From an uncultured bacterium (GTDB taxonomy: Bacteria > Atribacterota > Atribacteria > Atribacterales > Caldatribacteriaceae), in assembly GCA_937922705.1 (NCBI GenBank), contig CALAIW010000011.1, forward strand, positions 1-35,379: a stretch of DNA of 35,379 nt, given 5' to 3'. Positions 7,975-14,290 of this stretch are shown here, piece after piece (within the stretch, counting starts at the first letter, position 1; each line of letters begins with the position of its first letter). Below the pieces are notes generated by a model. The model saw only the letters and a list, made by a program, of their open reading frames with translations. It was not told the origin of the DNA and did not search any database. The position numbers and the translations under genes were made by a program.

Positions 7975-9174
7975 ATGCGCTTCGTTCTGATTCTTGCCCT
8001 TGGTGTTTTTGCCCTTTCAGGATGTCTTTTTGGCCTTTCTCAGGAAATATCCACTCTCGAAACCGACTTTGTCCTGGGGACAAACGACTTTGGCCTGAAA
8101 CTTTTGCGAACAACCTGGGAGAAAGAAGGAGGAAATGCTTTTGTTTCTCCAGCAAGTCTTGAAATCTGCTTGGCAATGATCGCCTATGGAGCAAGAGGAG
8201 AAACCCAAAGGGAAATATACAAGACCCTGGGACTTTCTGGACTCAGCGGAAGGGTTGACGAGGAAAATCGTAAACTCGTCGAGTCTTTGCATGTTACCAC
8301 CTCTGGAATCACCCTCAAGACAGCAAACTCCCTCTGGGCAGAAAAGAGCATGCCTTTTTACGAGGAATACCTTAAGGCTATAAAAGACCTGTACTATGCT
8401 GAGGGGTACAGTGTTGACCTTACCAATCCTGGAATACTCTCTCGAATCAACGATTGGGTACGCACAAAAACCCAGGGAACCATAGAGCGTATTCTTGACT
8501 CCTTGCCGGCAAATGCTATCCTTGTTCTTCTCAATGCCACATACTTTCAAGGGAAGTGGGAAATTGCCTTTGACCCTGCCCGTACCGAAGACCTCCCCTT
8601 TTGCACCCCACAGGGTCCAAGGAATATCCCCACCATGTGGCAGGAGGGAGAGTTCCTGTATCTTGAGAGCAGCACCTTCCAAGCAATACGCCTACCCTAT
8701 ACTGGAAAAACTTTCAGTATGTACATTTTCCTTCCCAAGGAAAGAGATGGCCTTAAGACACTCCTTGAAACTCTTAGTGCGCAAGCCCTAAATGCCTATT
8801 TTGAGGCAATGCAAGAAAAAAGGGGTGAGGTTTTCCTCCCCCGTCTTCGGGTCACCTTTGAGAAAACCATAAACGACACTCTCCAGGAACTGGGGATACG
8901 GCGTGCCTTTGACCCTTACGGAGCCGACTTTAGCGGAATGCTCCCACTATCTCCAGCCTACAACGCCTATTTGAGTGAGGTGCGGCACAAAACCTTCCTT
9001 GAGGTGCATGAGGAAGGAACAGAAGCTGCGGGAGTTACCTCAGGGGTCATTGCCATTACTGCTGTCCCCCTAGATCGCTTCACTATGCGGATAGACCATC
9101 CCTTTTTCCTCTGCATTCGGGATGAACGGACGGGTGTCCTCCTTTTTGCTGGAGCCATAGAGAACCCAGTTTGA
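7975..9174 (+). CDS. Serpin-family serine protease inhibitor, predicted lipoprotein
   Basis: A 399-residue serpin. The N-terminus is a lipoprotein signal ending LSGC, so Cys17 would be lipidated and the inhibitor anchored outside the cytoplasmic membrane. Serpin landmarks are NAFVSPASLEICLAMIAYGA (54-73), LLNATYFQGKWEIAFD (185-200) and an RCL hinge EEGTEAAGVT (346-355) with the small residues needed for loop insertion. The C-terminal DHPFFLCIRDERTGVLLFAG (374-393) is also present. Counting from E346 as P17 puts P1-P1' at about Thr362-Ala363, suggesting an elastase- or subtilisin-like target. The hinge composition argues for an inhibitory serpin. The start is ATG 7975 with AGGAGG at 7961-7966, 12 bases after the mgsA remnant. 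Confidence 0.93.
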   Translation: MRFVLILALGVFALSGCLFGLSQEISTLETDFVLGTNDFGLKLLRTTWEKEGGNAFVSPASLEICLAMIAYGARGETQREIYKTLGLSGLSGRVDEENRKLVESLHVTTSGITLKTANSLWAEKSMPFYEEYLKAIKDLYYAEGYSVDLTNPGILSRINDWVRTKTQGTIERILDSLPANAILVLLNATYFQGKWEIAFDPARTEDLPFCTPQGPRNIPTMWQEGEFLYLESSTFQAIRLPYTGKTFSMYIFLPKERDGLKTLLETLSAQALNAYFEAMQEKRGEVFLPRLRVTFEKTINDTLQELGIRRAFDPYGADFSGMLPLSPAYNAYLSEVRHKTFLEVHEEGTEAAGVTSGVIAITAVPLDRFTMRIDHPFFLCIRDERTGVLLFAGAIENPV

Positions 9175-10376: not shown

Positions 10377-11351
10377 TCACTCTGCACCTTTTTCCTCTTC
10401 CTTTCCCAGTCTCTCCCTCATGCGGGTGTCGGCCTGAAGATTCTGGAGGGAGTAGTAGTCGAGGAATCCCATCTTCCCCTCTCGCAACGCATAAGCCAAA
10501 GCCCGAGGAATCTCCGCTTCTGCTTCCACAACTTTAGCCCGCATCTCCTGAGTGTAAGCCTTCATCTCTTGCTCCCGGGCAATAGCCAGAGCTCTCCGCT
10601 CCTCAGCTTTTGCCTGGGCTACTCTTTTGTCTGCCTCAGCCTGGTCAGTCTGGAGCCTTGCACCAATGTTCTCCCCCACATCGATGTCCGCAATGTCAAT
10701 GGAGAGAATCTCAAAGGCTGTACCGGCATCAAGACCCTTGTCAAGAACCGTCTTTGAGATCGTATCGGGATTCTCCAAGACTTCTTTGTGAGAATGAGAC
10801 GAACCGATGGTGGTAACAATGCCCTCGCCTACCCGAGCGATAATAGTCGCTTCGGTTGCCCCACCAATGAGACGATCGATATTCGTTCGCACCGTCACCC
10901 GGGCTTTAACCTTAAGTTCAATACCGTCTTTAGCCACTGCCGCTACCGTCGGTGTCTCGATGACTTTGGGGAGTACGCTCATCTGCACCGCCTCAAGGAC
11001 ATTGCGCCCGGCAAGGTCGATGGCACAGGTCTTTTGAAAGGAGAGAGGAATACCTGCCCGTTCGGCAGCAATAAGAGAGATAACCACCCGGTCAACATTA
11101 CCCCCAGCGAGGTAGTGGGCTTCAAGGGCTCCAACGCTCAAGTCCAAACCAGCTTTGGTAGCCTTGATGAGAGGAAGGATAATGCTTGCCGGAGGAACAC
11201 GACGCAACCGCATTCCAATGAGAGTGACAATGCTCACCCGTACCCCTGCCGCCAAAGCCGAAATCCAAAGCCCCAGGGGCACCAGGGAGAAGAACACAAT
11301 GACCACAAGAAGAATCAGTACTGCCGGAATAAGATATCCGCCTATATTCAC
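10377..11351 (-). CDS. floA: Flotillin-like protein FloA
   Basis: A 324-residue SPFH-family membrane-microdomain scaffold of the FloA/YqfA (UPF0365) type. One N-terminal hydrophobic segment (about 7-35) anchors it. A band-7 domain follows ([27 protein letters not shown], split around residues 140-170). Then comes an alanine/glutamate-rich coiled coil ([20 protein letters not shown] near 235-255). The ATG overlaps the nfeD stop as ATGA (11348-11351), the usual nfeD-floA coupling. FloA oligomers recruit and organise membrane proteins, and NfeD-type partners are thought to process or stabilise them. The length and motifs are intact. Confidence 0.94.
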
Positions 11352-12724
11352 GGCTTGTCCTCCTTCCTTCGTCGCACAATAATGGTATTACCCTGCACCG
11401 CATCTACCGTCACTTCCGCCCCCTTCTCGATGAATTCGCCCCGACTGACCACATCGTACGACCTCCCCTCAATCTCGGCGACACCGGCTGGGCGAAGAAC
11501 GGTTTTTGCAACCCCTTCCTTCCCCAAAAGGTGCTCATAGGAAGAGGAGACTCTTTCTTTTTCTCGAGCAGGACTTCGTTCCCAAAGCCCTATCTTCTTC
11601 CAGATGGGATTCTGGGGAAGGAGGAAAAAAAGAGCCAGGAAAATCGCTCCCAAAATGGCTACATAGAGAAGGGTTTCTGAAAGTGCAGCAATAAAAGAAA
11701 ATTGTGTGGTCCTGAGCGTGAGATAGAGAGAAACAATCAAAGCCCCAATTCCAGTCACTCCCGTTACCCCAAACCCCGGAATAACCAAAAGTTCCAGAGC
11801 CAAAAGGACAATGCCAGCAAGAAAAAGCAGTAAAGGTTCCCACCCAGACAATCCTGCCAGATACCGTCCGCCGAAAAAGAGAAAGAGCGAGGTAAGACCC
11901 AGTATTCCAGGAACCCCAAAGCCCGGAGTCATGATTTCAAGGAAAATACCTCCAAAGGCAAGGAAAAGAAGAAGGGGTACTATTGCAGGATGGGTCACAA
12001 TACGTGCTAAGGTTTCCGACCAGGAGGGAGAAAGGGACACAATTGGACCCTCAAGACCAAGCTGGGCAAGAACCTCCTTTTGAGTTTGCGCAATTCCATC
12101 GATTGCCCCAAGCTCAAGGGCCTTTTTTGCCGGAAGGGTGAGCAAAGTTCCCCGCTCTTTCACCCCTTCGATGACCACTTCTCGGTCTACCATGGCGGCA
12201 AAAGGAAGCGGGTCTCTCCCACGAGCCTGCGCCAGAGCCTCAATCTGAGCTCGAAGAGCCGACACCGTTTTCGGATCGGGCTTTGCTGCTTCCTCTTGAG
12301 AGCCTCGCGGCTCACTTGCCCCCATGCTTCCATCAGGGGCCATAACAATCTTTTCGCAGGAGAGGGCCAGAAAGACTCCCGCCGACCAGGCTCTGGGATT
12401 CACAAAAGCCACAGTCTTTACGGGTGCACGAAAGACAAGGTCACTTATGAAGAGCATGGCATCTACCCGCCCACCAAAGGTATCGATTTCAAAGACCACC
12501 GCCTGAGCATCCTGCTTTTGAGCCTCCTGGAGAGCTCTCTTCACAAAGCTTGCTAATCCCCACTCAACTGCTCCCACATTGGGGACATCCTTGAGAGGAA
12601 CCCAGAGGATAGGTTGGGCTGCAAAAGCAAAAAACGTAGGAAAGAGAAAAAGAGAAATTCCCAGAACTGCCTGCCAGAACGTTTTAGAGAGAATCTTTCT
12701 TTTGCTCATGCCTTTTATAGCCAT
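11348..12724 (-). CDS. NfeD-family membrane serine protease (ClpP-like), long form
   Basis: A 458-residue long-form NfeD. It has an N-terminal signal or anchor, then a ClpP-class protease domain (about 38-235), four or so membrane helices (about 245-385) and a C-terminal OB-fold (about 395-458). The serine is in [17 protein letters not shown] (Ser114) and a lysine at about 152 in [16 protein letters not shown] aligns with the catalytic lysine of archaeal 1510-N. The S/K dyad therefore looks complete. It is the first gene of the nfeD-floA pair and overlaps floA by 4 bases. The family cleaves hydrophobic C-terminal stretches of membrane proteins such as stomatin relatives. The start could be ATG 12724 or ATG 12709; neither has a strong ribosome binding site. 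Confidence 0.92.
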
Positions 12725-12748
12725 AAAATTCTCTAATTATTCCCTGTG

Positions 12749-12822
12749 TTTTGTAGTCTCCAGGAATAAGTTTGCCTTTCCCTACAAAATTTTTTGTAGA
12801 GTTTGAATTTTTGGCTCTACAA
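12749..12822 (-). promoter_or_regulatory. Alternating TTGTAG repeats in the nfeD upstream region
   Basis: Four copies of one word alternate in direction on the plus strand: TTTTGTAG (12749-12756), CTACAAAA (12782-12789), TTTTGTAG (12792-12799) and CTCTACAA (12815-12822). The middle two form an 8-base hairpin with a 2-base loop. TTGTAGAG (12794-12801) with CTCTACAA (12815-12822) forms a competing 8-base hairpin. The elements could be paired operator sites or mutually exclusive leader hairpins for nfeD-floA. Confidence 0.45.
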
Positions 12823-12889
12823 GTGGAAAAATTCCGCATCTATACCCGAGAATAGGCGTAAAATGGGCATTTTTTTCGTGTAACTCGAC

Positions 12890-12918
12890 TTGACAAAGGA
12901 GGAATCCCAGGGTATCCT
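12890..12918 (+). promoter_or_regulatory. Promoter of the putative structured RNA
   Basis: TTGACA (12890-12895) and TATCCT (12913-12918) are separated by exactly 17 bases on the plus strand. This is a perfect -35 and a four-of-six -10, predicting a start near 12925. No open reading frame with a ribosome binding site follows, which points to an RNA gene. Confidence 0.6.
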
Positions 12919-12924
12919 AAAATT

Positions 12925-13230
12925 GCCATGGGCTCCGAGGAATCGGAGAACCGGAGGGTTGGAAAAAAGAACTCCTTCCTGCGAAGGAACGAGTTCGAAG
13001 CTTTCCTGCCAAGGAAAGTGGAAGTCCAATCCTGAAACACTAGGGGTATTAAGCGGTTATCCGTAAAATCTCCTGGTGAGATTGAGGTTCAAAGGTTCGT
13101 TGGGGTCCATGGTTTTTTATTACCCAAAAGCTGGGATTTCCTAAAGGGGCACGCCAAAAGTCGCCCGTTTGCGAGCATGTCACTCTCTCTCCATGCATTC
13201 CACTCCACCCTCACCTCAGGGTGGTTTTCT
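12925..13230 (+). ncRNA. Putative ~300-nt structured non-coding RNA, class not recognised
   Basis: The 673-base gap 12725-13397 holds no credible protein gene. Between a consensus-spaced promoter and a rho-independent terminator the plus strand can form many perfect helices. These are CTCCGA/TCGGAG (12933-12938 with 12943-12948, GGAA loop) and a 9-base closing helix at 12955-12963 with 13025-13033 (one G-U pair). Inside the closing helix is GAACTC/GAGTTC (12969-12974 with 12991-12996), enclosing CTTC/GAAG (12975-12978 with 12983-12986). Also inside is CTTTCCT/AGGAAAG (13001-13007 with 13012-13018, GCCA loop). Outside it lies AATCTC/GAGATT (13067-13072 with 13078-13083). The closing helix with two enclosed hairpins makes a three-way junction. 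I looked for the conserved cores of RNase P RNA, tmRNA, SRP RNA and 6S RNA and did not find them. It may be a lineage-specific RNA; transcription and conservation are untested. Confidence 0.5.
13205..13230 (+). terminator. Rho-independent terminator of the putative RNA gene
   Basis: CCACCCT (13205-13211) pairs perfectly with AGGGTGG (13218-13224) around a 6-base loop and is followed by TTTTCT (13225-13230). It is oriented with the upstream promoter and lies in the gap between convergent transcripts, so it would stop the RNA before the TspO-like gene. Confidence 0.75.
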
Positions 13231-13334
13231 CCTTGGGTATTCCATTTTTCAGCAACGTTACATGGTAAGTTATACCCTTCTTAGCCATGAATGACCCGAC
13301 CACCAATGAGGGCAATACCCAGGTGGGATAGGGG

Positions 13335-13358
13335 AAAAGTCCCAAGAGCATTTTGGGA
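13335..13358 (-). terminator. Weak terminator downstream of the TspO-like gene
   Basis: On the minus strand TCCCAA (13358-13353) and TTGGGA (13345-13340) form a 6-base stem with a 7-base loop, followed by CTTTT (13339-13335). It lies 40 bases after the stop of the TspO-like gene and faces the RNA-gene terminator. The stem is short, so the call is tentative. Confidence 0.4.
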
Positions 13359-13397
13359 AAATGTCCTGCTTTCTTTCGGGCTAAGGGTATGGCTTCC

Positions 13398-14204
13398 TCA
13401 ACCATACACCCTCCCTCGGGCGAACTGGACAGTAACGCACAGACTGATAAGCACAAGACAGATTACCGAGGCAACTATGACTTTTGGGGTAGAGGTCGTC
13501 GTATCAGCCATGCGCTTTAGGAGGATCCCAAGAATTGCCCAATCCACAACCAGGGCGTAAAAAGGGTCTTTGCGTCCAAAAAGGACAAAGAGGGCAAGCA
13601 AGGTTCCAACGCCTATCACCGCCACGGTCCAGAACTCTTCACTCAAACCAAACCGACCCCACCCGTAGGCCACAAGAAGAGTAGCGATATTGGCGATGGT
13701 GGCAATGGAAATCCAGCCAAAATAGAGACTCATCGGCAAATGCACCAGGTACTTCTCCCACACACTAACCCTTTCCTGACCAATGCCAAGTCTCACGTAG
13801 ATTGTCCCGAGCGTTCCCAAAAGGACCAACATAAAAATCATAGACAGGGGCAACACCTCATAGTGCCAGGAGAAAACCCAAAGGACATTGGCAATACAGG
13901 TGAAGAGGAAAAGAAAGCCGATTTTCTGGATGAACGATGGAGCCTGAGTGGGCATTCTCAGCGACTGGATAAGCCCATACACGACGAACATGCCCAAAAG
14001 AGCGTAAATAGCAGTCCATATCACCGAAAAGGTAATCCCAGCTGGTACGAAGAGGTTAGGATATCGATCGGCAAGCTCTCCGGTGGTTCTCCCGGCAAGA
14101 GGAAGTCGTACTGCTAAGGTGTTCACCATAACCACAACCACAAAACCAACGATGTTCAACACAGAAAGAAGAAGCGGAGAAAGCTGAGACGACAAGAAAA
14201 TCAT
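13398..14204 (-). CDS. TspO/MBR-like polytopic membrane protein
   Basis: A protein of about 268 residues with seven or eight hydrophobic segments. The N-terminal part resembles the TspO/MBR (tryptophan-rich sensory) superfamily: VNTLAVRLPLAGRTTGELAD, then PNLFVPAGITFSVIWTAIYALL. Later it has VLWVFSWHY and LPMSLYFGWISIATIANIA. This longer form (about 260-270 rather than 160 residues) is annotated in many bacteria without a known ligand. The frame is open from 14276, but hydrophobic sequence begins near 14200. ATG 14204 sits directly on AAGAAGGGG, and a TTG at 14195 would have ideal spacing. It ends 14 bases before the DJ-1 gene's downstream neighbour region and shares orientation with that gene, so the two may be co-transcribed. 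Confidence 0.72.
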   Translation of the reverse strand: MIFLSSQLSPLLLSVLNIVGFVVVVMVNTLAVRLPLAGRTTGELADRYPNLFVPAGITFSVIWTAIYALLGMFVVYGLIQSLRMPTQAPSFIQKIGFLFLFTCIANVLWVFSWHYEVLPLSMIFMLVLLGTLGTIYVRLGIGQERVSVWEKYLVHLPMSLYFGWISIATIANIATLLVAYGWGRFGLSEEFWTVAVIGVGTLLALFVLFGRKDPFYALVVDWAILGILLKRMADTTTSTPKVIVASVICLVLISLCVTVQFARGRVYG

Positions 14205-14290
14205 CCCCTTCTTGTTGTTTCGACGATAGCACACCTCAATAACAATACCAGAGAAAACAGCGTTTCCCAGATGCAACTAGATAAACCTCT

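Follow-up and report, generated by a model that had tools for sequence, protein, structure and literature searches.

Introduction

Structured noncoding RNAs of unclear function that do not serve as the leader of a single gene are already known as a kind, with OLE, ROOL, GOLLD, and raiA as examples. The RNA that we describe here, from the Atribacteria, is like them in these respects, yet it is shorter than OLE, ROOL, and GOLLD, and it differs from all four in being multicopy, in its paralogous classes, in its concerted evolution, in its restriction to one order of Atribacterota, and in having no Rfam match.

Three other systems also invite comparison. 6S RNA is present in two copies in some species. 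The Atribacteria RNA resembles it in being free-standing and about 190 nt long, with a long closing helix and its own promoter, whereas its branched three-way junctions, its GNRA-capped arms, and its up to 10 copies set it apart. The bacterial Y RNAs (YrlA), found together with Ro60, likewise join their 5' and 3' ends in a long stem that contains a mismatch, have a branched upper domain, and occur in several copies per genome; unlike them, the Atribacteria RNA has no Rfam match, and its host genomes lack a gene for Ro60. Finally, CsrA sponges of the CsrB and RsmZ type are free-standing, multihairpin RNAs, sometimes several per genome, and the copy studied here has several GGA triplets, but its compact, covarying junction architecture is unlike their chain of hairpins.

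That copy lies in a 35,379-nucleotide stretch of DNA (the window), which is contig C11 of a 1.85-Mb, 99% complete genome of an uncultured bacterium of the Caldatribacteriaceae (G000). An earlier reading of the window, here called the original prediction, had proposed a free-standing structured RNA of unrecognized class at this locus.

The locus and its predicted transcription unit

As first reported, a gap of 673 bases without a protein gene (12725-13397) separates the genes at 11348-12724 and 13398-14276. These genes had been described as convergent; both of them are on the minus strand. Relative to the plus-strand RNA, nfeD is divergent, and only the gene for a 292-amino-acid protein is convergent. 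The locus has the following features.

11348-12724, minus strand: nfeD, with floA downstream of it
12890-12918, plus strand: promoter, with -35 box TTGACA (12890-12895), 17-base spacer, and -10 box TATCCT (12913-12918)
12923-13121, plus strand: RNA, long form, about 195 nt, matched by models R1 and R2; fold z score, -7.3
12925-12944, plus strand: 5' strand of closing helix P1 (12925-12938, G.G mismatch base 12939, and 12940-12944)
12949-12952/13086-13089, plus strand: helix P2, which opens the outer three-way junction
12955-12963/13025-13033, plus strand: helix P3, which leads to the inner three-way junction (the closing helix of the original prediction)
12969-12996, plus strand: arm P4, with GNRA tetraloop GCGA
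13000-13019, plus strand: arm P5, with a GNRA-like tetraloop (GCCA in the window copy)
13038-13045/13071-13078, plus strand: arm P6 of the outer junction
13094-13113, plus strand: 3' strand of P1 (13094-13098, mismatch partner 13099, and 13100-13113)
13113-13118, plus strand: run of six T's directly after P1, with P1 a putative intrinsic terminator
13205-13228, plus strand: second terminator-like hairpin (stem 13205-13224), downstream of where the conserved model ends
13398-14276, minus strand: membrane-protein-like open reading frame (ORF) of 292 amino acids, with no Pfam hit

The promoter was found just as originally proposed, with TTGACA at 12890, 17 bases, and TATCCT at 12913. On the plus strand, positions 12918-13232 fold with an energy of -129 kcal/mol, compared to a mean of -95.8 for shuffled sequences (z = -7.3, with none of 100 shuffles as good), and the minus strand of the same segment folds only weakly better than its shuffles (z = -1.65). 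A protein-coding role was discarded: the median longest ORF across copies is 13.5 codons, with lengths spread evenly over the three frames, and in other copies nothing of such length corresponds to the 47-codon ORF found in the window.

Two further observations concern the surroundings of the RNA. Interleaved CTACAAA/TTTGTAG palindromes, a possible operator or terminator, lie upstream of nfeD at 12785-12822, and elsewhere in the window a serpin gene (7975-9174; PF00079, 336 bits) adjoins a 2-thiouracil desulfurase/DUF1722 gene. Genes for related ClpP-fold proteases stand beside two different copies of the RNA, namely, NfeD1b in the window (11348-12724) and an SDH protease in G019 (L075, 2449-3309), possibly by chance.

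Comparison with described RNA families

The window has no match in Rfam 15 at the gathering threshold, and when the region 12700-13400 was searched up to an E value of 10, the sole match was a chance microRNA hit (mir-196, to the palindrome part at 12794-12822) that lies outside the RNA. Representatives of the other structural classes likewise gave no Rfam match on the RNA. The original claim of an unrecognized class therefore stands, both at the gathering score and, for anything overlapping the RNA, at relaxed thresholds. With no relative among 4,227 models, the family is new. In their main text, two genome-wide surveys of structured bacterial RNAs mention neither Atribacter nor Caldatribacterium, and searching the literature on Atribacteria and noncoding RNA returned nothing relevant, although unpublished or subscription-only reports may escape such searching.

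These results bear on whether the RNA could be a divergent form of a known housekeeping RNA (6S, SRP, RNase P, tmRNA, or Y RNA). Such an identity would account for the long closing helix and for two copies in a genome, both of which can be found in 6S RNA. However, cmscan found no such RNA in the region at E values up to 10 and none in the other classes, in agreement with the original statement that cores of RNase P, tmRNA, SRP, and 6S RNA are not seen. The 6S model (RF00013) in particular had no match up to that value within 12700-13400; its matches, in 20 of the 25 genomes of the order, are at a different locus, which in the genome of the window is on contig C26 (G000:C26). As many as 10 copies per genome would also be ill-fitting for SRP or RNase P RNA, and no Ro60/TROVE gene was found in any of the 25 genomes. 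We consider a divergent housekeeping RNA extremely improbable.

Family membership and distribution

A DNA search of the window's own genome led to a second locus (G000:C21), with 37 bases in common at 86% identity. It holds a 139-nt RNA with a closing helix and promoter spacing as in the window copy and with a U-run after the helix. We then built two models. R1, made from five short forms of one genus with neither a long form nor the window copy among them, recovers the window copy at 54.6 bits with an E value of 5.6e-10 (model E values are rough, owing to a short calibration) and has matches in 24 of the 25 genomes of the order. R2, for which we used 30 sequences (the long form plus close relatives of it), matches all 25, with the window copy among its matches. 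Together, the models give at least 93 loci at E values of 0.001 or lower, from 1 to 10 per genome, with copy numbers in draft genomes influenced by contig breaks. The single-contig genome G016 has 10 copies, plus weaker copies of one class, and the genome of the window has 4 or 5 paralogues.

Outside the order, R2 gave no credible match among 25 genomes from the rest of the phylum, where one weak match passes; weak matches from a laxer search of the sister class were set aside, since by eye they are short terminator hairpins or coding sequence. There was no match in 336 genomes beyond the phylum under stricter filters. A degenerate 25-base pattern of the 3' strand, searched across 84,980 species that were represented by a single genome each, was found in eight contigs, all from Atribacteria, and in no viral contigs, and an exact 23-base pattern returned nothing over genome contigs. 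Among the lineages searched, the family is thus confined to one order of Atribacterota.

A covarying fold with two stacked three-way junctions

For the covariation analysis we aligned 30 sequences and took the commonest minimum-energy pairs as the structure. In this alignment 89.8% of the cells at paired positions could pair, compared to 81.3% in shuffled controls and 34 to 55% when the alignment was slid. The covariation score was 0.411, versus 0.257 for shuffled and 0.10 to 0.16 for slid controls. Since the structure was derived from the same sequences, the slid control on its own is generous, and changes on both sides of a pair are the stronger evidence. Such changes occur in 42 of 58 pairs, compared to 26.9 in shuffled alignments, and in 219 cells, compared to 76 ± 10. 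The compensatory changes that the original prediction had asked homologues to display are therefore present, and we regard it as nearly certain that this is a real structured RNA family, undescribed so far and absent from Rfam.

The fold is enclosed by P1, a closing helix of 19 pairs in which 97.2% of the cells are paired over the 30 copies and nine pairs have two-sided changes. It contains a conserved G.G mismatch, with G at column 19 in all 30 sequences and at column 182 in 28. Above it lie two stacked three-way junctions (P2-P3-P6 and P3-P4-P5) with GNRA-capped arms. P6 has 91.7% of its cells paired and two-sided changes in all eight pairs; the corresponding values are 89% and seven of nine pairs for P3 and 67% and three of four pairs for P2, the weakest helix, and these counts understate P2 and P3, because the alignment, which had no manual curation, is shifted by one base around P3 in one genus. 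The unpaired positions conserved to at least 90% are the G.G mismatch, two G's before P3 (columns 33 and 34), and a few A's, each standing singly, in the junctions and in one loop. G.U cells far outnumber A.C cells (235 versus 66), which suggests that the plus strand is the one that folds and that it folds as RNA rather than as single-stranded DNA.

Several helices of the original prediction (12955-12963/13025-13033, 12969-12996, and 13001-13018) correspond to P3, P4, and P5 of this consensus. Its three-way junction corresponds to the inner one, but the main closing helix (12925-12944/13094-13113), which encloses both stacked junctions, had been overlooked. The stem once drawn at 13067-13083 gives way to another reading of that sequence, P6 at 13038-13045/13071-13078. 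The two similar loops taken for a repeated receptor are both GNRA-type tetraloops on like closing pairs, a feature of the whole family: GNRA sequences account for 67 of 119 tetraloops in 74 copies, compared to 34 of 337 in shuffled sequence. This points to tertiary docking rather than to a repeated binding sequence.

Predicted promoters, putative terminators, and structural classes

Nearly every copy has a promoter of the form TTGACA-17-TATAAT just upstream. A complete upstream flank is available for 71 copies: 51 of them have TTGACA itself, 64 have the 17-base spacer, and in 59 the distance from the end of the -10 box to the start of the model is 4 or 5 bases. At the other end, a U-run directly follows P1 in nearly all copies, with T at columns 198 to 201 in 90 to 100%. 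Given that the U-run lies right behind P1, the two together probably form an intrinsic terminator. For the window copy, we infer a transcription start near 12924-12926 and an RNA end near 13116-13121, at about 13118. The conserved RNA is thus about 195 nt long, rather than the roughly 300 nt with an end near 13228 that had been proposed; the terminator called at 13205-13230 does exist as a terminator-like stem (13205-13224), but as a second one, outside the conserved RNA.

A terminator-shaped P1 with its U-run is also what a cis-acting switch (a riboswitch or attenuator) would have, with the closing helix as terminator and a local 5' hairpin as its alternative. In the window copy, the 5' strand of P1 can indeed form a perfect GGAA-capped hairpin (12933-12948), which the original prediction had listed as a stem of the RNA and which is an alternative use of that strand. 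Across the family, this hairpin is fully formed in only 29 of 74 copies and disrupted in many, and its pairing is no more than expected by chance (at least as high in 276 of 2,000 shuffles). In addition, of the 66 copies that have a gene downstream, 42, the window copy included, have the nearest one on the opposite strand, and of the 24 genes on the same strand most are more than 200 bases away. A cis-acting switch therefore seems very unlikely to us.

The family comprises at least six structural classes, all of which have P1 and the promoter in common, with lengths of 102 to 204 nt (mostly 140 to 200). In two of the family's genera (g1 and g3), the second unit of tandem pairs belongs to a 140-nt class and carries the U-run, while the first units (102 to 194 nt) are without one. 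Tandem pairs in one likely transcript were seen at L065, L074, L092, and L047 (in G002, G004, G007, and G000, respectively). At the last of these, on contig C2, a T-box leader (L047, 3380-3630; RF00230, 117 bits) precedes an anthranilate-synthase-like gene that is divergent from the tandem RNA copy.

Evolution and genomic neighborhoods

Several loci are syntenic among species of genus g5. At three such loci, copies of one class differ at 1 to 6 positions within a genome and mostly at 9 or 10 or more between species (for instance, 2 differences between G012d and G012e and 10 between G012d and G016d); G014 and G016, near-identical at these loci, stand apart from this pattern. Greater similarity among the paralogues of one genome than among syntenic copies of different species indicates concerted evolution, and some paralogues have thus been homogenized.

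Could the RNA instead be a selfish or mobile element, such as a MITE-like or intron-like repeat, whose transcription is incidental to its spread? Genomes do hold several copies, in orientations independent of their neighbors and with many at contig ends. Within its genus, the copy beside nfeD is found only in G000 and G003; it was not detected in G001, G002, G004, G005, G007, or G009, several of whose contigs end close by. One pair of copies (G024, L049) lies inside a duplicated 2.7-kb segment, 97% identical, together with genes for ArsR and an ACR3-like transporter. Against mobility stand the copies kept at the same loci across g5 species, the compensatory changes that maintain the structure, the single transposase among about 30 nearest neighbors, and the flanks of near-identical copies, where similarity runs unevenly upstream without shared sharp edges. 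On this evidence, we judge a mobile element to be quite unlikely.

The neighbors of the copies include transporters, hydrolases, an Lrp-type regulator, an anthranilate-synthase-like gene, polynucleotide phosphorylase, and the transposase; none is shared, and no pathway is indicated. This diversity, along with the lack of a consistent codirectional downstream gene, argues that the RNA acts in trans.

Three other features were noted near copies. Between the two G024 copies (L049, 5032-7200) are repeats of about 30 bases with a period of about 66 bases, resembling a CRISPR array. A single ORF in G016 (L052, 3712-5661) joins a DruA-like region (DruA being a Druantia protein) to Tn5-type transposase domains, as either a fusion or a DruA-domain-carrying transposase family. 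Just upstream of a divergent class of 158 to 180 nt, also in G016, is a gene for a secreted-looking protein of 121 amino acids with no Pfam family (L057, 3284-3649), with orthologues at L080, L088, L086, L087, L084, L083, and L077, in eight genomes of three genera.

Partner genes of known RNA systems

We searched the genomes for the protein partners of described RNA systems. Ro60/TROVE is absent from all 25 genomes of the order (the positive control was detected), and a Y RNA reading was dropped for lack of this partner gene. CsrA was not found in the six g5 genomes (G012 to G017), which include those with 7 to 10 copies of the RNA, among them the single-contig G016; we abandoned a role as a CsrA sponge, as these are the genomes richest in the RNA. 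Hfq is missing from all 25 genomes as well, with positive controls detected, which disfavors the commonest antisense route, and the reading as an Hfq-dependent small RNA was dropped.

Base-pairing regulatory RNAs could also work without Hfq, targeting mRNAs through loops or junctions like the multicopy csRNA and LhrC sets. The family is consistent with this in being multicopy and free-standing, in its strong promoters and its own terminators, and in arms that differ by class. Nevertheless, Hfq is absent, GNRA tetraloops, which make poor seeds, often cap the arms, and most of the conserved unpaired bases are in the junctions. Base pairing with mRNAs is, in our estimation, unlikely.

Discussion

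Our results describe a real RNA family that is in all likelihood transcribed and acts in trans; what goes beyond this, we infer. We favor an independently transcribed, trans-acting structural RNA that serves as a ribonucleoprotein scaffold or as a protein-binding regulatory RNA, a reading to which we give a probability of roughly 45%.

If the favored reading is right, sigma-70 polymerase would start just after the -10 box, and the RNA would fold as two stacked three-way junctions; its arms, capped by GNRA loops, may dock elsewhere on the fold, judging by loop type alone. The 3' strand of P1 would displace any local 5' hairpin and pair with the 5' end; this pairing and the U-run would end transcription, and the pairing would also protect the ends of the RNA. 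The conserved core (the G.G mismatch and the A-rich junctions) would most likely be held by a common protein partner, although a single partner is an assumption, since the arms differ strongly among paralogue classes (102 to 204 nt in all). The variable arms could give each paralogue a role of its own.

A bolder proposal, which we find possible but on balance doubtful, is that the RNA represents a new ribonucleoprotein class, unique to one Atribacterota order and present in all its members, with several specialized paralogues per genome maintained through gene conversion and with a function novel among bacterial RNAs, perhaps in cell organization. Atribacter has an intracytoplasmic membrane around its nucleoid (PMC7736352).

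The RNA is missing from the catalogue used for genome annotation. Transcriptome sequencing data, from rRNA-depleted RNA of late exponential cells, have been published for a cultured Atribacter, A. laminatus RT761 (PMC7736352), which makes it testable at once, and its paralogue classes and tandem arrangement offer a natural series for structure-function work. All 25 genomes of the order have the RNA, often in more than one version, and no relative that we searched does; this distribution makes it a candidate for an important function in these bacteria.
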